From contig MEGH01000031.1 of the NCBI GenBank assembly GCA_001725415.1, positions 20,700 to 84,699 on the forward strand: a DNA stretch of 64,000 nt. Direction: 5' to 3'. The translations under genes and the position numbers were made by a program. Within the stretch, counting starts at the first letter, position 1. Every line of letters starts with the position of its first letter. Origin of the DNA: Pseudonocardia sp. SCN 73-27 (GTDB lineage Bacteria; Actinomycetota; Actinomycetes; Mycobacteriales; Pseudonocardiaceae). Below the pieces are notes generated by a model. That model searched no databases. It had not been told where the DNA came from and worked only from the letters and a program-made list of their open reading frames with translations. Of this stretch, positions 6,628 through 59,486 are shown one piece after another.

Positions 6628-7643
6628 GCCGGGCTGCTCGCGGTCACCGGGAGCGACAGCCGGGGGTAGACGGTTCGCGCGTTGCCCGCGAAGACCGCGG
6701 TGCGTTCGGCGTCGGTCAGGAAGTCGAAGCCGTCGATCACCGGCTTGAGGTCGTCGTAGTCGCGGCCCGTCCGCGGGTTGGGCGACGTGCCGCTGCCGGG
6801 CCGCTCGGTGCCGAACAGGCAGCGGTCCGGGCCGACCGTGCGCAGCAGCAGCTCCAGCGACAGCGGATGGTGCAGCACGGTGTCGAACCACAGCCGGCGC
6901 AGCGCGGTGGTGAAGTCCTCGCGGGTGCCGTCGGACAGCTCGTTGTGCGACCAGTCGGCCTGCCAGCGCCCGATCTGGTAGGGCACCGAGCCGCCGCCGT
7001 GCGCCACGACGATCCGCAGGTCGGGGAACTCGTCGAACACCCGGGAGCGCATCAACGACATGATCGCGACGGACTCCTCGGTGATGAAGTGCTCGCTGTA
7101 GGTCTCGCGCTCGTTGAAGCAACCCGCGGCGTGGACGAGCGCGGGGACGTCGAGCTCGACGAGCTCGGCGTAGAGCGGGTACCAGAACTCGTCGCCGAGC
7201 CCTGGGGTGAAGCCAGTGCCCTCGTACGGGTCGGGGTTGACGCAGACGCCGACGAACCCCAGCTCGTCGATGGCCCGGTGGAGCTCGTCGAAGCACACCT
7301 CGACCGGCTGGCCGGCCCCGATCGGCAGCCCGGCGACGCCGGCGAACCGGTTCGGGTACAGGGCGACCGTGCGGGCGATGACGTCGTTAGTGGCGGCCGT
7401 CCAGATCGGCAGGATCCGGGCCGGCCGCACCGAGTGCATGGCGTGGTAGGGCCGGGGCGAGAGCAGTTGGACGTCCGTGCCGACGGAGTCCATGTACTCG
7501 ACGTTGCGCGCGGCGAAGGTCTCGAGCCGGCGCTGCGAGACCTTGGGGGTCAGCGGGTGGTAGCCGCCGTCGGCGAGCAGGTCGGCGCGGAAGGCGTAGA
7601 GGCCCTCCGGGGCGAACAGGTGGGCGTGGCAGTCGACGATCAT
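6624..7643 (-). CDS. Amidohydrolase-superfamily hydratase, LigJ-like (4-oxalomesaconate hydratase)
   Basis: The 339-residue protein has the amidohydrolase metal motif near its start (CHAHLF, His6 and His8), later VHAAG and VAHGGGSVPYQ, and FGTERPG near the C-terminus. Many stretches agree with 4-oxalomesaconate hydratase LigJ of Sphingobium (for example LLSPRPYHAM, VNPDPYEG and the spacing of the closing FGxExPG). LigJ adds water to 4-oxalomesaconate to form 4-carboxy-4-hydroxy-2-oxoadipate in gallate and protocatechuate 4,5-cleavage. The gene is coupled to the RidA gene upstream (ATGA) and lies in one operon with a LigB-type dioxygenase, while three RraA/LigK-like genes follow in the neighbouring operon, which supports the call. 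A decarboxylase of the ACMSD type is the main alternative. Confidence 0.8.
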   Translation of the reverse strand: MIVDCHAHLFAPEGLYAFRADLLADGGYHPLTPKVSQRRLETFAARNVEYMDSVGTDVQLLSPRPYHAMHSVRPARILPIWTAATNDVIARTVALYPNRFAGVAGLPIGAGQPVEVCFDELHRAIDELGFVGVCVNPDPYEGTGFTPGLGDEFWYPLYAELVELDVPALVHAAGCFNERETYSEHFITEESVAIMSLMRSRVFDEFPDLRIVVAHGGGSVPYQIGRWQADWSHNELSDGTREDFTTALRRLWFDTVLHHPLSLELLLRTVGPDRCLFGTERPGSGTSPNPRTGRDYDDLKPVIDGFDFLTDAERTAVFAGNARTVYPRLSLPVTASSPA

Positions 7644-34256: not shown

Positions 34257-34331
34257 TGGTGGGCGCGGCAGGGTTCGAACCTGCGACCGCTCGGGTGTAA
34301 GCCGAGTGCTCTCCCGCTGAGCTACGCGCCC
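34257..34331 (-). tRNA. tRNA-Val (anticodon TAC), CCA encoded
   Basis: The reverse strand folds as a complete tRNA: acceptor GGGCGCG/CGCGCCC, D-stem GCTC/GAGC, anticodon stem CTCGG/CCGAG with loop CTTACAC giving anticodon TAC, variable CGGTC, T-arm GCAGG-TTCGAAC-CCTGC, then discriminator A and an encoded CCA at 34257-34259. It lies at the junction of the conserved chromosome and the integrated element and is the probable attachment site. Confidence 0.97.
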
Positions 34332-49691: not shown

Positions 49692-49904
49692 ATGGTGGCA
49701 GGCAAGCCGGAGCGCCCGGAGGTGGTGCAGGCGCCGTTCCTCACCGTCGCCGAGGTGGCCGAACGGATGCGGGTCTCGAAGATGACGGTGTACCGGCTGG
49801 TGCACAGCGGCCAGCTACCCGCCGTCCGGTTCGGACGCTCGTTCCGGGTGCAGCGCAACGCGGTCGACGACCTCATCGAGTCGGCCCGTTTCGAGGCAGG
49901 CTGA
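49692..49904 (+). CDS. Small excisionase-type DNA-binding protein
   Basis: The 70-residue protein is a winged-helix/excisionase (MerR-like) domain: FLTVAEVAERMRVSKMTVYRLVHSGQLPAVRFGRSFRVQ. It agrees closely with the conserved mycobacterial Rv0500A, so it is chromosomal and not a phage excisionase. It probably binds DNA as a transcription factor. A hairpin repeat follows the stop after 31 bases. Confidence 0.9.
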   Translation: MVAGKPERPEVVQAPFLTVAEVAERMRVSKMTVYRLVHSGQLPAVRFGRSFRVQRNAVDDLIESARFEAG

Positions 49905-49935: not shown

Positions 49936-50000
49936 CCGCCGAGTTCGACGCGAGACTGCTCCGGGCCGGCCCGGGACCATCCTGCTGTCGAACTCGGCGG
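49936..50000. repeat. Dispersed 64-nt hairpin repeat, copy 1
   Basis: Outer arms CCGCCGAGTTCGAC (49936-49949) and GTCGAACTCGGCGG (49987-50000) are perfect inverted repeats. Inside is a second perfect palindrome CCGGGCCGGCCCGG (49961-49974), preceded by GACTGCTC. It lies between convergent genes and could end transcription of both. Related copies are at 55788 and 57630. Confidence 0.85.
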
Positions 50001-50010
50001 TTCGTGTCGA

Positions 50011-51009
50011 TCAGCGGGTCCGACCGCGCGGGCGCAGCGGCACCGGCGGCATGGCGGGCGCCGACAGCGGGTCCCCGTCGTAGCCGGTCACCTCACCGAA
50101 GCGGGCCGGCCCCGTGCCGGTGATCTGGGCCTGCCACGCCGACCGCGCCGACCGCACCTCGTCGCCGCTGCGGCCGACGAACTCGTCGCCGCTGCGGCCG
50201 ACGAAGTTCCACCACATGACGATCTGCTCGTCGAACGGCACACCGCCCAGCAGCAGGAACCGGCTCGCGGACGCGGCACGCAGCCGCAGCTGCGACCGTC
50301 CGCATCCCAGGTAGCACAGCGTTCCCGGGTCGAGGACACCGTCTATGTCCGGCTCCCCGGAGACCGTCAGCACCGCGTGCTCGAAGTCGGGCTCCACCGG
50401 GATCACGACGTCCGCACCCGCCGCCAGCTCGACGTCCACCCCGACCAGCGGGGTGTGCACCCGGCCCGGCGACAGCGCCTCGGCGAACTCCCCGAGCAGC
50501 ACGGTCGCGCGCATGCCGGTGCCCGTGACCGTCGGCAGCCCGGCGTGGAACTCGAACCGCGGCGGGGTCTCGCGTGCCTCGTCGGGCAGCGCCACCCACA
50601 GCTGGGCGCCGTGCAGCAACGGCGCGTGCGGATCGGGCGACTGCTCGGCGTGGGCGATGCCGCGGCCCGCCGTCATCAGGGCGAGCTCCCCCGGCCCGAT
50701 CACCTCGTCGCTGCCCAGGCTGTCGCGGTGGTGCACGGTGCCCTCGAGCAGCCAGCTCACCGTCTGCAACCCGATGTGCGGGTGCGGCGGCACCTGCATG
50801 CCGGGCGCCTTCGCGACATCATCGGGGCCGTAGTGGTCGACGAAGCACCAGGCGCCGACCATGCGCCGGCCCAGCGTCGGCAACAGGCGGCGGACCTTCG
50901 TCGACCCGCCGAGTGCGACGGTCTTGGCCGCCAGCACCTCACGCACCGGCTCGACGCGCGGCTCGGGTCCGCAGACCTCGACCGCAGGCCGCGTAGACGT
51001 GTCGCTCAT
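50011..51009 (-). CDS. Pirin family protein
   Basis: The 332-residue bicupin has MQVPPHPHIGLQTVSWLLEG, with metal ligand histidines, and GRGIAHAEQSP. Its C-terminal part holds an internal duplication of eight residues (FVGRSGDE twice, encoded by 50162-50209). ATG 51009 is well placed. The Nudix gene lies 16 bases upstream on the same strand, so the two may be cotranscribed. Confidence 0.9.
   Translation of the reverse strand: MSDTSTRPAVEVCGPEPRVEPVREVLAAKTVALGGSTKVRRLLPTLGRRMVGAWCFVDHYGPDDVAKAPGMQVPPHPHIGLQTVSWLLEGTVHHRDSLGSDEVIGPGELALMTAGRGIAHAEQSPDPHAPLLHGAQLWVALPDEARETPPRFEFHAGLPTVTGTGMRATVLLGEFAEALSPGRVHTPLVGVDVELAAGADVVIPVEPDFEHAVLTVSGEPDIDGVLDPGTLCYLGCGRSQLRLRAASASRFLLLGGVPFDEQIVMWWNFVGRSGDEFVGRSGDEVRSARSAWQAQITGTGPARFGEVTGYDGDPLSAPAMPPVPLRPRGRTR
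50162..50209 (-). repeat. 24-bp tandem duplication inside pirin gene
   Basis: Two adjacent 24-base units (50162-50185 and 50186-50209) are nearly identical and encode FVGRSGDE twice. The frame is preserved. The short perfect repeat points to recent slippage or unequal exchange. Confidence 0.85.
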
Positions 51010-51025
51010 GACCCGCTCACCGGAC

Positions 51026-51535
51026 TCATCGGTCCAGACTAGGACGCCGGCCGTCGGCGTCGAACCCGAACGCCGCCACCGCGGGCACCGGCGCATCACC
51101 CGCCAGCCACACCAGGACCTGCCGCTCGTGCGGCACCACCGGGTCGGGCAGCGCCGCGAGCGGGAACCAGCCCACCCCCGCGGACTTGTCGTCCTCCGCG
51201 GCGCGTGGCTCCCCCGACCAGCGTCGGCAGGTGAAGAAGAAGTCGACGCGCTCGTCGACGGGCAGGCCCGTCGCCTGCGTACGGTGCAGCGCCGTCAGGG
51301 GTTCGAGATCGACCGGGTCGACGACGACGCCCAGCTCCTCGGCCGCCTCCCGCACCGCGGCGCGGTGCACCGACTCGCCGTCCTCGACGTGCCCCGCGGC
51401 CGCCGCGGCCCAGTACCCGTCCATGAACCCGGTTCCGGCGCGCAGCTGCAGCAGCACCTCGATGCCTTGCGGGCCGTCGCGCAGCAGCAGGACGTACGCG
51501 GCGGGGACGAGACGGAACCGGTCGGTCACGATCAT
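51026..51535 (-). CDS. Nudix hydrolase
   Basis: The 169-residue protein carries the Nudix box (GHVEDGESVHRAAVREAAEELGV, with the REx2EE core) and would hydrolyse a nucleoside diphosphate derivative. ATG 51535 starts right at homology. Followed closely by the pirin gene. Substrate unknown. Confidence 0.92.
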   Translation of the reverse strand: MIVTDRFRLVPAAYVLLLRDGPQGIEVLLQLRAGTGFMDGYWAAAAAGHVEDGESVHRAAVREAAEELGVVVDPVDLEPLTALHRTQATGLPVDERVDFFFTCRRWSGEPRAAEDDKSAGVGWFPLAALPDPVVPHERQVLVWLAGDAPVPAVAAFGFDADGRRPSLDR

Positions 51536-51769
51536 CGACCCTACGGGCGCCGCCGTACAGGCAGTGGAAAGCCCCGGGCCGCGGTCGGGGGCACAGCGGC
51601 CAGGGCGAGCGGTGCGTGGTGCGCGGGGTCAGTCCGACGACGTCGGGCCGGTCCATCGCGGTCACCTCGTCGACGGTGATCCGCGGGATGAACGTCGCCG
51701 ACGGGTGGTTCTTCGGGTTCGCGGTGTAGAGCCGTCCTCGGGTACACCGCGGCTCGGCGGCGGCAACGA
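51536..51769. other. Gene-free interval with a coding-like fragment
   Basis: No complete gene is seen here. On the reverse strand, 51630-51730 reads as LYTANPKNHPSATFIPRI and VDEVTAMDRPDVVGL, which looks like protein sequence but has no start or complete frame. It may be the tail of a lost gene. Confidence 0.4.
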
Positions 51770-51807
51770 CCGAGGGGCCGGACCGCGGTCGCGGTCCGGC
51801 CCCTCGG
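51770..51807 (-). terminator. Very strong terminator hairpin of nrdJ
   Basis: An 18-base perfect stem (51770-51787 with 51790-51807) has a two-base loop. It begins 15 bases beyond the nrdJ stop. It is the strongest hairpin seen by eye in the window. Confidence 0.85.
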
Positions 51808-51821
51808 GGCTGCTCCGACGG

Positions 51822-54662
<2,841 letters not shown>

Positions 54663-54816
54663 CCTCGTCCTCTTCCCCTGAGCAACCGTGGTGCGGTGGT
54701 GCCGCACCGATGTCAACGACCGCGCCGGCCGGTGAGCCGCCCGACGGGCCGTCCGGTGGGTCGACCGGCCGGTGTCGCGCGCCGGCCGGGCGACACGCCC
54801 GTTCCCAATCCGCGTT

Positions 54817-55344
54817 CTACGGCGCGCTCCGTCGCGACGGGGTGCCCCCCGCCTCGGCGTCGCCCGCTGCGTCCTCCGCGTCGTCGGCTGCTTCCCCGGC
54901 ATCCGACTTCCGCAGGTCCGCGATCTCCTTCTCGAAGTCGTCGATCGACGAGAAGGACCTGTACACACTCGCGAAGCGCAGGTACGCCACCTCGTCGAGC
55001 TCCCGCAGCGGCCCGAGGATCGCCAGCCCCACCTCGTGGCTGGGGATCTCGGCCGTACCGCCCGCCCGGACCGCCTCCTCGACGCGGTGCGCGAGCTGCT
55101 GCAGCGCGTCCTCGTCGACAGGGCGCCCCTGGCAGGCACGTCGTACTCCGCTGACCACCTTGTCGCGGAGGAAGGGCTCGGTCACACCACTGCGTTTGAC
55201 GACCGCGAGCACCGGCTCCTCGACCGTCGTGAACCGCCGTCCGCACGACGCGCACGAGCGGCGGCGCCGGGTCGCCTGCCCGTCGTCGACCTCACGGGAG
55301 TCGATGACGCGGCAGTCGGAATGACGGCAGAACGGGCAGCGCAC
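54817..55344 (-). CDS. nrdR: Transcriptional repressor NrdR
   Basis: The 175-residue protein has a four-Cys zinc ribbon (CPFCRH ... CASCGRR) followed by an ATP-cone domain that senses dATP, the repressor of ribonucleotide reductase genes. GTG 55344 is used because CPFC must come directly after the start; GAGAGGATC lies upstream. The tail after about residue 152 is an acidic Ala/Asp/Glu extension that E. coli NrdR lacks. Confidence 0.95.
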
Positions 55345-55408
55345 AGTAGTGATCCTCTCTCCGAGAGCGACCGCAAAACCCAACCTGTGGCCGAACAACA
55401 CGTATGTA

Positions 55409-55424
55409 ACCACAAGATGTGGGG
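55409..55424. promoter_or_regulatory. NrdR-box-like palindrome upstream of nrdR
   Basis: ACCACAAGATGTGGGG contains CCACA-AGA-TGTGG, matching the NrdR-box pattern (ACACnATATnTnGTGT type) in its outer half-sites. NrdR boxes normally occur in pairs; a weaker ACACGTATGT (55398-55407) is next to it, but the spacing is unusual. It suggests autoregulation of the nrdR-nrdJ pair. Confidence 0.5.
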
Positions 55425-55787
55425 GTAGTCGCGACCGGGAGGCCCCAGAATCGCAGGTTCCCCCGATCTGGCGAGTCGGTGGCGGCGATCGCGCCGGGCG
55501 TGGTCGCGCAGCGCGGCGTGTCGGACACGCAGCGCCGCCACGGGACCCGTCCGGATCCGACGACGCGTACCCGCACCGACGGCGACAACTCCGGAGCGCG
55601 ACCGCTGCACGACCCCCGGCGGACCCCGGACAAGCTCGCCCGGTTCACCGACGAGACCCGATCCGGAACGCACGACACTGCCATCCCGGGCGTCCCGCAC
55701 AGGACGGCACCCATGGCCGGACACCGCCTGCGATCGGGTAAGGCACTGCACCGCGTGACGACCCGAGGCACGTTCAGTGGAACGCCG

Positions 55788-55851
55788 CGCCGAACTCGAC
55801 ACCAGACTGCTCACGAGGTTGCTGGATCCAGCCTGTTCGTCGAACTCGGCG
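55788..55851. repeat. Dispersed 64-nt hairpin repeat, copy 2
   Basis: Outer arms CGCCGAACTCGAC (55788-55800) and GTCGAACTCGGCG (55839-55851) pair with two mismatches. The inner palindrome is GCTGGATCCAGC (55821-55832). GACTGCTC after the left arm matches copy 1. It lies 37 bases beyond the LysM stop. Confidence 0.8.
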
Positions 55852-55888
55852 TGAGCGTCGGGACGCCCCTCGAAAGCCCACAGCGCGC

Positions 55889-56590
55889 TCAGGCCGCGGG
55901 GGCCGTGAGCACCTGGCCCGGGCGCAGCGCGGCCGAGTGCAGGCCGTTGAGCTCCGCGATGTGCGCGGCAGCAGCCGCGGGGTCGGCGTCGGGCGCCGTG
56001 CGGCGGGCGATGTCCCACACCGTGTCGCCCTGCCCGACCACGACCTGTGCCGTCGCCGCGGGGATGCCGGGGCCGGTGTCGCGCGTCGCGTCGGCCAACG
56101 AGCCCAGGCCCACCACCACGCCCGCCGCCACGACGGCCAGCACCACCAGCGCCGCGGCCCGGCGGACCCGGTAGCGCAGCGCCGGCAACGTCCGCCGGAC
56201 GGTCCGTGCGCCCGCAGGACGGCGACGCACCCGGCGCGCCGGGACACAGCGGCCGTGGACCGTGCGCTCGACGCTGTCGGCCAACGGCGGCTCCCACTCC
56301 GCCGGTGCCGCGGGACCGACCGGGAGACCGCCGGGGATGAGCGTCAGCGCCGGGCGGCACTCCGCCGCACCACCGGGACGCGCCGCGACCGACACGCTCC
56401 GCCGCGGCTCCCCGCGACGGGCCTCGCGCGGCCGCGCGGGGCGCGGACCCGAGCCGTGCCGCCGAGCACGCCCGGCACCGCAGTCCGGCCGGGCCTCGCG
56501 ACCACCGCGGACGACCGTCTCCTCCGGCGCCCTCCCGGGCTCCGCCTCCGACCGCGCGCCCGCACATCCGGGAGCCGTGCTGACAGACAT
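55889..56590 (-). CDS. LysM-domain protein, SOS-linked (Rv2719c/DivS-like position)
   Basis: The 233-residue protein has a long Arg/Pro/Gly-rich N-terminal region, a membrane segment near residues 155-175 ([17 protein letters not shown]) and a C-terminal LysM domain ([28 protein letters not shown]). Divergent from lexA and next to LexA boxes, it takes the position of mycobacterial Rv2719c and corynebacterial DivS, SOS-induced suppressors of cell division. Homology rests on LysM and position; the N-terminus is longer than in those proteins. Confidence 0.82.
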
Positions 56591-56699
56591 GGCATTTCCC
56601 TTCCCGTCGGCGCCGGCTGCTGCGTCGGCGACTCGCGTCGTCCGGGGTGCACCCGCGCCGCCCGCGGTGGCCCACCGCACCGGATCGGATACGCTCCGT

Positions 56700-56731
56700 T
56701 CGCACGGACGTTCGATCGAACGTCCGTGCGA
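56700..56731. promoter_or_regulatory. Two back-to-back LexA boxes in a perfect palindrome
   Basis: TCGCACGGACGTTCGA (56700-56715) and TCGAACGTCCGTGCGA (56716-56731) each match the actinobacterial LexA box TCGAAC-N4-GTTCGA with one mismatch. They abut as exact reverse complements in a 34-base palindrome (56699-56732). They lie 110 bases upstream of the LysM gene and 152 bases before lexA. Confidence 0.85.
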
Positions 56732-56781
56732 ATGTCTATCACCGGCCACCGACAATTCTCGGCGACGCGCCCGCGTGTCGT

Positions 56782-56797
56782 TCGAACATGTGTTTGG
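56782..56797. promoter_or_regulatory. LexA box near lexA
   Basis: TCGAACATGTGTTTGG agrees with TCGAAC-N4-GTTCGA except for TTGG at the end. It lies about 85 bases upstream of the lexA start and would mediate autorepression. Confidence 0.75.
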
Positions 56798-56882
56798 CGG
56801 CGGCGATGATCGGGTCTACGGTTCGGTGGCGACGGCGGCGGGGACGGACGGTCCCGCCGCGCCGATCGAGGAGGCGGACGAG

Positions 56883-57614
56883 ATGGCACGGGACGAGACC
56901 GGTACCGACCGTGAGGCCGGGCAGGTGCGGTCCTTCCCGGACCCGGCCGACGCCGAGGGCACCGGCGCGGCGCTCACCCCACGGCAGCGCAAGGTCCTGG
57001 AGGTCATCCGGGACTGGGTCGACCGCTTCGGCTACCCGCCGAGCGTGCGGGAGATCGGTGACGCGGTCGGCCTGACGTCGACGTCGTCGGTGCACCACCA
57101 GCTGCGCACCCTCGAGCGCAAGGGCTACCTGCGGCGCGACCCGAACCGCACCCGCGCGGTCGACGTGCGCTCCCCCGAGGACATCGGCGACGAGAACGCC
57201 GAGGCCCGGACCGACGCCACCGAGCGCGACGAGCACCCCGCCCCCGCCTACGTCCCCCTGCTGGGCAACATCGCCGCCGGTGGGCCGATCCTGGCCGAGC
57301 AGGCGGTCGAGAGCGTGTTCCCGCTGCCGCGGGAGATCGTCGGCGAGGGCACGCTGTTCCTGCTCAACGTCCGTGGAGACTCGATGGTCGAGGCCGCGAT
57401 CACCGACGGGGACTGGGTCGTGGTGCGCCAGCAGCCGGTCGCCGAGCAGGGCGAGATCGTCGCCGCGATGATCGACGGCGAGGCCACGGTCAAGACCTTC
57501 CGCCGCCGCGACGGGCACGTGTGGCTGATGCCGGCCAACCCGGCCTACGACCCGATCCCGGGCGACGACGCGTCGATCCTCGGCCGGGTCGTCGCGGTGC
57601 TGCGCCGCCTCTGA
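56883..57614 (+). CDS. lexA: SOS repressor LexA
   Basis: The 243-residue repressor has an N-terminal winged helix ([40 protein letters not shown]) and a self-cleaving domain with cleavage site Ala132-Gly133, catalytic Ser167 (GDSMVEAAI) and Lys204 (ATVKTFRRR). The N-terminus is about 30 residues longer than E. coli LexA, which is common in actinobacteria. ATG 56883 follows GAGGAGG. Followed by a hairpin repeat. Confidence 0.96.
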
Positions 57615-57629
57615 CCCACCCCGCACCCA

Positions 57630-57692
57630 CGCCGAGTTCGACACAGGACTGGTCCGCCGGCGGTCGCCGGCAGCCCGACGCCGCACTCGGCG
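57630..57692. repeat. Dispersed 64-nt hairpin repeat, copy 3
   Basis: The left arm CGCCGAGTTCGAC (57630-57642) has the family sequence; the right arm ACTCGGCG (57685-57692) pairs only with its first eight bases. The inner palindrome is CCGGCG-GT-CGCCGG (57657-57670). It lies between the convergent lexA and propeller-like genes. Confidence 0.75.
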
Positions 57693-57701
57693 GGACGAGG
57701 G

Positions 57702-59486
57702 TCAGCGGCCCGGGCGCGCCCCGACGTCGGTGGCGTCGACGGAGTCGGCCTCACGAGAGGTCTGCTCCTTGTCGCGGTCCGTCCTCCCGTTGCGTGAGCC
57801 GTTCTCCGCCACAGGTCGGGGTGGCTGGTCGCCGCGGGAGCCGTCGTCACCTGCTCCCGGTGGAGGCGGACCGGCGGGTGTGGGCCGCGGTCCCGACGTG
57901 GCGGGCGGCGGCCCGCCCGGAGGCGATCCCGCACCGTTGGGACCCGCACCGTTGGGAGGAGGGCCGTTCGGACCCGGGACCGGCGGCCGGCCGTTGGACG
58001 GGAACTGGCCGGTGGGACCGGCCGGGCGCAACGGCCGGGCAGGTCCGACGGCGTACGCAGACCCAGGTCCCGGAGGACCGCCAGGACGACCCGGGCCGCC
58101 GGGACCACCCACGGGAGCAGGACGCCCACCGGGCGGCCCCACACGTGGCGGCCCCACCGGGGGCGGACCCTGCGGCGGGCCCGGAGGCCGACCGACGGGC
58201 GGCGGACCGATGCGCGGCCCCTGGGGCGGACGCCCGGGCCCGGCCCCGTTCGGCGGTGGAGGTCCCGGCCGCGGGCCACCGGGACCTACGGCCGGAACCG
58301 GAGCGGGCACGTCCCCGGCACGAGCATCTGCGGAAGCCGCACGGTCGTCGGGGCGCGGCGGGCTGTCGGCGGTGACGGTCGGCGAGTCGTCGGGCTCAGG
58401 CGGCTCGGACTCGAGTTTGCGCAGCTCGCGACGCGACCGGGAGAACGAGCGCAGCGCCATCAGGACGGCACCGACGACCAGCACCCCGGCGGTACCGACG
58501 GCACCGATCATCGCCGGGGAGGACCAGGACACGGCGTCCTTCTCGACCGGGTCGGCGGGCGCGGCGGGGGCCTCGGCGGTACCGGCGCTGATGAACGCGA
58601 CTGCGCCGTCGACGGACCGCAGCGCGCCGGGCGTGCCGTCACGGGTCTCCGAGCCCGACCACAGCGCTCCCGTGGCGTCGAGCGCGACGGCCTCGCCCTG
58701 GGGCTCGTCGGGCAGCGGGATGCGGGTGGGGGCGGCCTTGAGGGCCTCCACGATGGCGCCGGCGTCGCCCGGTGCTGCGACGGGGTAGAGCCAGGCATCG
58801 GTGTAGCTGCGCAGCGCGACGGTGCGCCCGTCGGGACTCACCGATCCGCCGGTGACCAGGCGGGACCCGATGCCGCCGAGCGGTCCGCCCGGGGTGTCGG
58901 AGGCGGGCAGCGAGAGGTCGGCGACGCGCTGCATCGCGGTCGGGCCGGTGCCGGTGAGCGGCCCGGGCGTCCGGTAGACCCCCGCGGGGCCGACGGCGTC
59001 CTTGGTGACGATGACGGGCACGCCGTCGGCGCCGACGAGCATCGCCTCGGCGTCGTGCGGGCCGTCGGGGTAGCTGAGCCGGTAGAGCTTGGAGGCACCG
59101 GTCGCGGGCAGCGTGATGACGGCGACGGTCGAGCGGGTCGACGTGTTGTCTCCGATGTCGGCCACCCACAGCGCCCCGGCGGGCCCGCGGGCGAGGTCCT
59201 CGGGGTCCAGCGGGTCGGTGGTGGCCGCGCGACTGTCGGTGACGGCGCAGGTGGCCGGGTCGATGGCGTAGGCGGCGGTGCGGCGGCCACCGTCGGCCAT
59301 CGCCCACACCGTCGGGTTGTCAGGGGTGCCGTCGACGACGAGACCCGACAGCTCGGCGAGCCGTGGGTCGTCGACGGTGCAGTGGGTGCGGACGCCCGGG
59401 GGCGGGTCGGCGGCGAGGGCCGTCCCGGCTCCGCCCAGGAGGGCGGCCCCGAGGACCAGGACGACCGCGGCCGCGCGACGGATCAC
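57702..59486 (-). CDS. Membrane-anchored protein with proline-rich cytoplasmic tail
   Basis: The 594-residue protein has a signal peptide (residues 1-24), an extracellular domain with repeated short strand motifs (LSGLVVDGTPDNPTVWAMAD, EDLARGPAGALWVADIGDN, PQGEAVALDATGALWSG) that looks like a beta-propeller, a single membrane segment near residues 335-355 (AMIGAVGTAGVLVVGAVLMAL), then about 200 residues that are very rich in Pro and Gly. GTG 59486 starts 8 bases after the hflX stop. The function is unknown; the layout recalls sensors or adhesion receptors. The tail is intrinsically disordered. Confidence 0.85.
   Translation of the reverse strand: MIRRAAAVVLVLGAALLGGAGTALAADPPPGVRTHCTVDDPRLAELSGLVVDGTPDNPTVWAMADGGRRTAAYAIDPATCAVTDSRAATTDPLDPEDLARGPAGALWVADIGDNTSTRSTVAVITLPATGASKLYRLSYPDGPHDAEAMLVGADGVPVIVTKDAVGPAGVYRTPGPLTGTGPTAMQRVADLSLPASDTPGGPLGGIGSRLVTGGSVSPDGRTVALRSYTDAWLYPVAAPGDAGAIVEALKAAPTRIPLPDEPQGEAVALDATGALWSGSETRDGTPGALRSVDGAVAFISAGTAEAPAAPADPVEKDAVSWSSPAMIGAVGTAGVLVVGAVLMALRSFSRSRRELRKLESEPPEPDDSPTVTADSPPRPDDRAASADARAGDVPAPVPAVGPGGPRPGPPPPNGAGPGRPPQGPRIGPPPVGRPPGPPQGPPPVGPPRVGPPGGRPAPVGGPGGPGRPGGPPGPGSAYAVGPARPLRPAGPTGQFPSNGRPPVPGPNGPPPNGAGPNGAGSPPGGPPPATSGPRPTPAGPPPPGAGDDGSRGDQPPRPVAENGSRNGRTDRDKEQTSREADSVDATDVGARPGR

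Follow-up and report, generated by a model that had tools for sequence, protein, structure and literature searches.

The stretch of DNA analyzed here, 64,000 nt of contig MEGH01000031.1 of Pseudonocardia sp. SCN 73-27 (hereafter the window), carries three copies of a palindromic hairpin element, each close to a gene end (Table 1). This element, together with a family of nuclease genes bracketed by palindromes of the same kind, is the subject of this report. All three copies called in an initial annotation of the window are indeed present in the sequence, with copy 1 being one base narrower at each end than annotated. Copies 1 and 3 have a convergent setting, the former flanked by the HTH_17 and pirin-family genes and the latter by lexA and a gene that has no Pfam match at E 0.001, and copy 2 is placed between two same-strand genes, behind the LysM-domain gene and upstream of the nrdR-like gene. 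The start of the LysM-domain gene was extended by hand, the gene caller's version spanning 55889–56188. The inner part of the element is eroded in all three copies; that of copy 1 is strongly diverged and lacks the loop word CATGATCGAA, and the right arm of copy 3 carries two changes.

Table 1. Copies of the palindromic element in the window and their neighboring genes.
Feature	Position	Strand	Details
Copy 1, palindromic element, 63 nt	49937–49999	-	Arms 49937–49949 and 49987–49999; 68.6 bits on -, 65.2 bits on +
Copy 2, palindromic element, 64 nt	55788–55851	+	Arms 55788–55800 and 55839–55851; 64.2 bits
Copy 3, palindromic element, 63 nt	57630–57692	+	Arms 57630–57642 and 57680–57692; 54.5 bits
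HTH_17 gene	49692–49904	+	Stops 32 nt before copy 1
Pirin-family gene	50011–51009	-	Stop 11 nt past copy 1, convergent
NrdR-like gene	54817–55344	-	Start side towards copy 2, 443 nt off
LysM-domain gene	55889–56593	-	Stop 37 nt from copy 2, tandem
lexA	56826–57614	+	Ends 15 nt before copy 3
Gene without Pfam match	57702–59486	-	Stop 9 nt past copy 3, convergent

The three hairpins belong to a large dispersed family, whose abundance greatly exceeds what chance would produce. In the genome from which the window comes (G000; 6.95 Mb in 99 contigs, 99.99% complete), the outer-arm pattern CGCCGARYTCGAC N25–45 TCGARYTCGGCG occurs at 28 places with both arms in spacing and at none when read backwards, and a covariance model built from 22 copies (R1) finds at least 88 distinct places among the 150 matches listed, with one place beyond these 88 at C57:116 (L089:116–177). 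The initial annotation had named a lack of further copies in the genome and a lack of covariation in relatives as outcomes that would speak against a family; many further copies exist, and covariation is seen in relatives. The consensus reads CGCCGAGTTCGAC, a hypervariable link, GACTGGT, a loop containing CATGATCGA, ACCAGTC, a second link and GTCGAACTCGGCG. Conserved in the family are the arms and the off-centre loop word; an AC-rich link, as described for the window copies, is not a general feature, the link being hypervariable across copies. The fold is strong, with a mean of -35 to -37 kcal/mol, and a T-run is rare, five or more T within the next 12 nt being found at 4 of 176 hairpin sides. 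Base counts in the flanks of 91 matches reveal no conserved tetranucleotide, GTAG or other, just a C-rich left and a G-rich right side. No match at the Rfam gathering score was obtained for the window hairpins, and one good copy scores far below it.

A 15-nt loop core, allowing one mismatch, is found at 37 places genome-wide, all of them inside listed elements; an uptake-signal sequence of the DNA uptake sequence (DUS) type was considered and rejected, as it would also occur in single copies inside genes. In the 37 collated core-carrying copies, identity to the consensus is 89% for the left arm and 94% for the right arm, and 11 of the 28 copies chosen by their arms differ from the loop core at five or more of 15 bases. 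From the 91 collated matches, L033:2321 and L038:2153 were excluded, leaving 89 for the context and border tests; the within-genome pairing and copy-identity tests also omit L107 and use exactly 63-nt copies only (58 of 88 in G000, and 48 of 49 in the relative G023, where 49 of 51 rows were used and L211:9097 and 15922 were excluded as another subfamily).

Relatives are referred to by labels, and the names attached to them are provisional: G023 corresponds to Pseudonocardia sulfidoxydans NBRC 16205, G012 to P. eucalypti DSM 45351 and G068 to Pseudonocardia sp. N23. G023 is closely related and rich in elements, with 88%–93% identity in the four main pieces surrounding the window. The 89 copies of G000 comprise 46 in convergent, 32 in tandem and 2 in divergent spacers, 6 overlapping a called gene and 3 at a contig edge; among the 49 copies of G023, 32 are convergent, 14 tandem and none divergent, 1 overlaps a called gene and 2 lie at an edge. 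Of the total spacer length in the fetched G023 regions, convergent spacers account for 17%, tandem ones for 47% and divergent ones for 36%. Placement of the copies is not random. The median distance from stop codon to element is 15 nt in G000 (96 of 124 distances are at most 30 nt) and 17 nt in G023 (53 of 78), in line with the gene-end placement originally proposed; in G012, too, divergent spacers are avoided (1 of 21 copies), but the majority of its copies lie farther from stops. These counts rest on a codon-usage gene caller trained on 142 open reading frames picked by codon-position GC and checked against a few recognizable genes, an earlier caller having been discarded because it picked antisense frames in GC-rich DNA. 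As judged from the sequence, a bidirectional terminator, one of the readings first proposed, would fit this placement. Orientation relative to tandem genes (same/opposite) is 14/18 in G000, 11/3 in G023 and 8/1 in G012; because it is inconsistent between genomes, the proposed structured RNA with a fixed orientation is not clearly supported, and an orientation-specific RNA is neither supported nor excluded.

To compare constraint between G000 and G023, we started from the 28 G000 copies that have both flanks in fetched G023 DNA and used 18 of them for divergence. The others comprise eight without an R1 match in G023 (one with a weak match and one with the left arm kept), one spanning the gene-bearing site described below and one of another subfamily, the latter being kept in the 19-site spacer and codon comparison; as the G023 regions had been selected for elements, the shared fraction gives no estimate. 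At the 18 shared sites, differences amount to 38/467 in the arms, 24/234 in the loop, 58/180 in the links and 50/251 in the inner stem, compared with 109/519 in aligned spacer DNA next to the elements and a divergence of 17% at third positions of codons (19 sites). The arms are thus more conserved than the adjacent spacer (Fisher P 1e-8), with an arm divergence biased low by the requirement that shared copies score in both genomes, and the links are less conserved (P 0.003). The orthologous place of window copy 2 in G023 holds a weak, degenerate match of 24.7 bits. Two of the 18 shared sites (L037/L207 and L087/L208) align better with the between-arm part inverted in one species. At L225:14412–14440 of G023, opposite the G000 copy L030, a 14-nt CGCCGAGCTCGGCG takes the place of the relative's full element, as though the central part had been lost by deletion.

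In other species, the fold is kept and the letters of the arms are changed. Of the pair cells in 50 sequences drawn from seven genomes, 92.0% hold standard pairs; both sides have changed at 15 of the 21 pairs, and the covariation score of 0.392 (versus 0.149) is reached by none of 500 shuffles; copies within a genome are related, so that these cells are not independent events. The initial annotation had read the differing inner palindromes of the window copies as selected paired changes. Between species, base pairing is conserved as that reading proposed; within G000, pairing of the arms and inner stem does not exceed that in shuffles, except at pair 17/47 (51 paired versus 39.7 expected, P 0.0056). 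Pair 15/49 is paired less often than expected (17 versus 29.3, P 0.0004; both values from 86 copies without shared sites, over 11 columns and uncorrected), suggesting that a mismatch is kept there, albeit not universally, since this pair is perfect in several of the bracketing palindromes described below. A broader model, R2, matches at E ≤1e-4 in 46 of 62 genomes of the genus, G000 included. Under strict filters, 10 of 296 genomes of a class-wide sample have R2 matches, namely this genome, eight of genus g8, which belongs to another family of the same order, and one of another family. The exact-arm pattern has no match in viral contigs.

A REP-associated tyrosine transposase (RAYT; REP, repetitive extragenic palindromic), which the initial annotation suggested looking for, is not found: the RAYT/Y1 family PF01797 has no matches in G000, G023, G012, G029 or G068, element-rich relatives included, and is present in 5 of 60 genomes of the genus. 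A different partner emerges from the spans between close element pairs. Among 12 such spans picked by hand, five, from five genomes, hold the same family of ~300-aa proteins. DUF559 (PF04480) matches above its cut-off in four of the five proteins; MTES_1575 matches below its own cut-off in four, AbiEi_1 matches weakly and below cut-off in three, and the fifth protein, from a g8 genome, has a weak AbiEi_1 match only. An AlphaFold2 model built from 21 relatives reaches a predicted local distance difference test score (pLDDT) of 93.2. Its best Foldseek match, and the sole one below 0.001, is the AbiEi antitoxin 6y8q (E 5.7e-5); the nuclease part matches I-Bth0305I (3r3p) with E 0.076, probability 1.00 and a template modeling (TM) score of 0.70 by target length, and 3hrl with E 0.55 and probability 0.97. 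By sequence profile, 3hrl is matched at 9.4e-6 and 3r3p at 0.34. From these matches and the model, the partner protein can be described as an AbiEi-like part joined to a predicted DUF559/MTES_1575 nuclease domain of PD-(D/E)XK/Vsr fold.

Homologues of this protein at E ≤1e-10 occur in all 62 genomes of the genus, with 2–19 per genome; on plasmids and in phages, DUF559 homologues are found in 6 of 72,556 and 1 of 50,697 records, respectively, as weak matches. We compared the upstream with the downstream DNA of 69 loci, 30 of them the best of their genome and 39 hand-picked among the listed homologue matches, using 415 G023 genes as controls. The flanks are alike above the 99th percentile of the controls at 49 loci and above all controls but two at 44 loci, and those two control genes, scoring 70 and 77, are flanked by another palindrome family. 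That other palindrome, GAGTGGCGATAGTCGC...GCGACTATCGCCACTC, stands on both sides of two ordinary G023 genes (L228:12848–14555 and L235:15859–17128) and occurs at 36 places in 707,733 bp of G023, and at none on the + strand of the window. At 40 of the 69 loci, the gene's own downstream flank is the best match to its upstream flank among all 69, and 9 of 13 paralogues in G012 have mutually best flanks. The bracketing palindromes differ from gene to gene inside one genome. A g8 genome, G132, shows three palindromes with a period of ~103–104 nt before its nuclease gene (L387:3935–4207, equal to L311:1501–1770) and one after it, with two further palindromes 1.5 kb upstream.

A nuclease gene bracketed by palindromes of the window's own family is found in G023 and not in G000. 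This gene (C20:26375–27265) is flanked by L213:6310–6372 and 7342–7404. In the corresponding intergenic position, a single full palindrome (70.2 bits) is found in G068 and a single palindrome shortened to 52 nt by an inner deletion (37.4 bits) in G000; G013 has no R2 match, and G017 has just the 14-nt palindrome CGCCGAGCTCGGCG (L391:1367–1380; 14.7 bits, E 0.24), possibly a remnant or else a chance match. Parsimony over these few genomes favors the view that the G023 gene was inserted into a palindrome already present there, with loss being possible.

If nuclease genes and palindromes are coupled, the palindromes of a second gene should reveal a second dispersed family, and this prediction held. 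The arms of the C32 nuclease gene of G023 are found at 31 places in 707,733 bp, whereas 40 shuffled arms yield 0.4 places on average and never more than 3. Placement of this family (12 convergent, 13 tandem, 3 divergent, 2 at an edge and 1 in a called gene) is looser than that of the window family. Its palindromes also form head-to-tail arrays with a period of ~59–62 nt in G023 (L220:18880–19112, L218:1599–1772, L199:16687, L206:6967 and L231:64). For the C16 gene of G023, BLAST finds its palindromes at 3 places, and an arm scan gives 82 matches, largely from the C20 family and chance (0–33 for 30 shuffled arms).

Finding DUF559 nuclease genes between palindromes of this kind alters the interpretation of the hairpins. 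The window copies are probably solitary, non-autonomous members of a palindromic element tied to a Vsr-fold endonuclease gene, in the manner of REP/RAYT systems, and kept as bidirectional 3'-end hairpins. Such a REP-like system with a Vsr-fold nuclease is favored because it is the simplest account of the bracketing, the gene-specific arms, the dispersed families and the locus found in three states. The autonomous unit would consist of a palindrome before the gene, the gene, and a palindrome just at or after its end. The protein would recognize its own palindrome, either in double-stranded form or folded back into a hairpin, and cut there. In the course of repair or replication, new places would then receive a copy of the palindrome, with or without the gene; alternatively, the gene may insert into an existing palindrome. 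Solitary palindromes would be relics or targets of the autonomous unit, persisting directly behind stop codons, where they may do the least harm and some good by acting as bidirectional 3'-end hairpins, that is, as U-tract-less terminators or mRNA ends. Placement at stops and constraint on the arms suggest that the copies are now useful or harmless 3'-end hairpins. As a wider proposal, for which we see even chances, free-standing AbiEi-DUF559 genes, each with its own pair of ~60-nt palindromes and homing into or copying these, would form a class of mobile DNA that is carried as 2–19 genes in every one of the 62 genomes, extends to one or more further families of the order, and has a few members that spawned tens, perhaps hundreds, of solitary gene-end hairpins.

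Several results weigh against this reading. The flank-similarity test failed at 20 of the 69 loci, some of which have unlike hairpins on both sides, and its control genes, like the control spacers, come from G023 regions that were chosen for holding elements. In many genomes of the genus, nuclease genes are present but R2-type copies are scarce or absent, which is expected if the arms are gene-specific but would fit a looser link as well. In G000 and G068, the gene's locus holds nothing beyond a solo palindrome, though both genomes are rich in copies, and the flanks differ between sites with and without an element beyond the element itself, so that the border is unproved to the base. Direct repeats of 2–10 nt at the borders of the 89 copies, as a target-site duplication would leave, do not exceed those of shuffled pairings. 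Near-identical 63-nt pairs are absent from G000 and G023, the closest pair differing at 4 of 63 positions, and no recent burst is visible. Within 400 kb of G012 and 400 kb of G080, the palindromes of the nuclease genes of the respective genome are found at 0 or 1 place each, and those of G012 L320 find six places in G023 and none in the G012 stretch; expansion would thus be occasional and likeness not strictly confined to the own genome, and large solitary families look like the exception.

Three other explanations compete with the nuclease-linked element. U-tract-less (I-shaped) intrinsic terminators occur in actinobacteria, and the hairpins might be just such bidirectional 3'-end structures, terminators or mRNA stabilizers that never moved, a bound factor accounting for their likeness and the nuclease genes carrying the same terminators. 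Positions right behind stops and between convergent genes, the strong fold, and the conservation of arms and loop at shared sites are what this explanation would predict, and I-shaped terminators likewise are strong hairpins that closely follow stop codons and lack a T-run. Of the traits of an intrinsic terminator, however, the stable stop-proximal hairpin is present and the U-tract is lacking, and, unlike I-shaped terminators, the hairpins have sequence-specific arms and a loop common to dozens of loci, with matching copies before nuclease genes. We consider the explanation unlikely, since it accounts neither for an upstream palindrome that matches the downstream one with gene-specific arms, nor for a locus that is solo in some genomes and palindrome-gene-palindrome in another, nor for a second family predicted from a gene's flanks.

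The palindromes might alternatively be operators, bound by the AbiEi-like part around its own gene for self-control, with the dispersed copies forming a regulon or decoys. The AbiEi antitoxin family binds inverted repeats at its own promoter, and an AbiEi antitoxin is the best structural match of the partner protein; yet the dispersed copies stand behind genes and not at promoters (2 of 89 divergent), an operator needs no downstream copy, and the conserved nuclease domain would go unexplained, which makes this explanation quite improbable on its own, although an operator role could coexist with the nuclease-linked element. Most improbable is a miniature inverted-repeat transposable element (MITE) of an ordinary DDE transposase, with the 13-nt arms serving as terminal inverted repeats. 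Short length, dispersal, inverted arms and a patchy distribution across species all recall a MITE, but target duplication is lacking, the arms at shared sites are more conserved than the adjacent spacer, unlike those of a decaying insertion, and the palindromes bracket a nuclease gene.

Among known systems, REP, bacterial interspersed mosaic element (BIME) and REPIN sequences with their RAYT (TnpA-REP) proteins come closest, and the REP-like reading first offered for the window is supported by the many dispersed palindromes behind genes. As here, these systems comprise dispersed, species-specific palindromes behind genes or between convergent genes, and a nuclease gene bracketed by the same palindromes, which in the present case is of the DUF559/Vsr-fold type. 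For GTAG REPs of 20–40 bp, both placement behind genes and bracketing of the nuclease gene are reported in the text of PMC3733652. The hairpins described here differ by their length of 63 nt, by showing no GTAG tag and by the absence of a PF01797 match in this genome; the system works like REP/RAYT, but fails on transposase and tag as a member of it. According to the same source, CGTC-tagged REPs form four predominantly alphaproteobacterial families for which no dedicated transposase was found; its main text makes no use of the word "actinobacteria". The CGTC REPs resemble the present palindromes in lacking an identified dedicated transposase. By fold, the named mobile nuclease most similar to the nuclease domain is I-Bth0305I, a weak match by sequence (E 0.34); whereas its PDB title calls it a mobile intron protein, the gene here is free-standing, encodes an AbiEi-like N-terminal part and is bracketed by palindromes. 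AbiEi antitoxins, the best fold match, differ in that the AbiEi-like part is here fused to a nuclease domain. A DUF559 gene beside a transposase marks a recombination hotspot in another bacterium, according to PMC12308824, and none of the open-licence papers listed in our searches connects DUF559 with flanking palindromes or reports the present repeat.

DUF559 is a Pfam domain of unknown function, and the proteins described here gain a testable candidate role. Many of their genes carry what appear to be their own two substrate sites, so that specificity could be readable from the genome, and, if the proposed link is true, they would provide many gene-site pairs of natural sequence-specific nucleases. 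REP-like repeats would then have arisen with at least two unrelated nucleases, and the link would bear on the question, posed as open for CGTC REPs in the text of PMC3733652, of how palindromic repeats can spread when no transposase is known for them. The origin of some actinobacterial gene-end hairpins would also be explained. The findings suggest that mobile DNA of a type that has received little notice has come to serve as punctuation where genes end.

Single copies in G000 depart from the common form. On C57, two elements (L089:116–177 and 195–257) are separated by just 17 nt, and a copy of 86 nt on C39 (L093:1001–1086) contains ~23 additional bases near its right arm. In the window itself, the only Rfam match at gathering level is a tRNA gene at 34260–34331.

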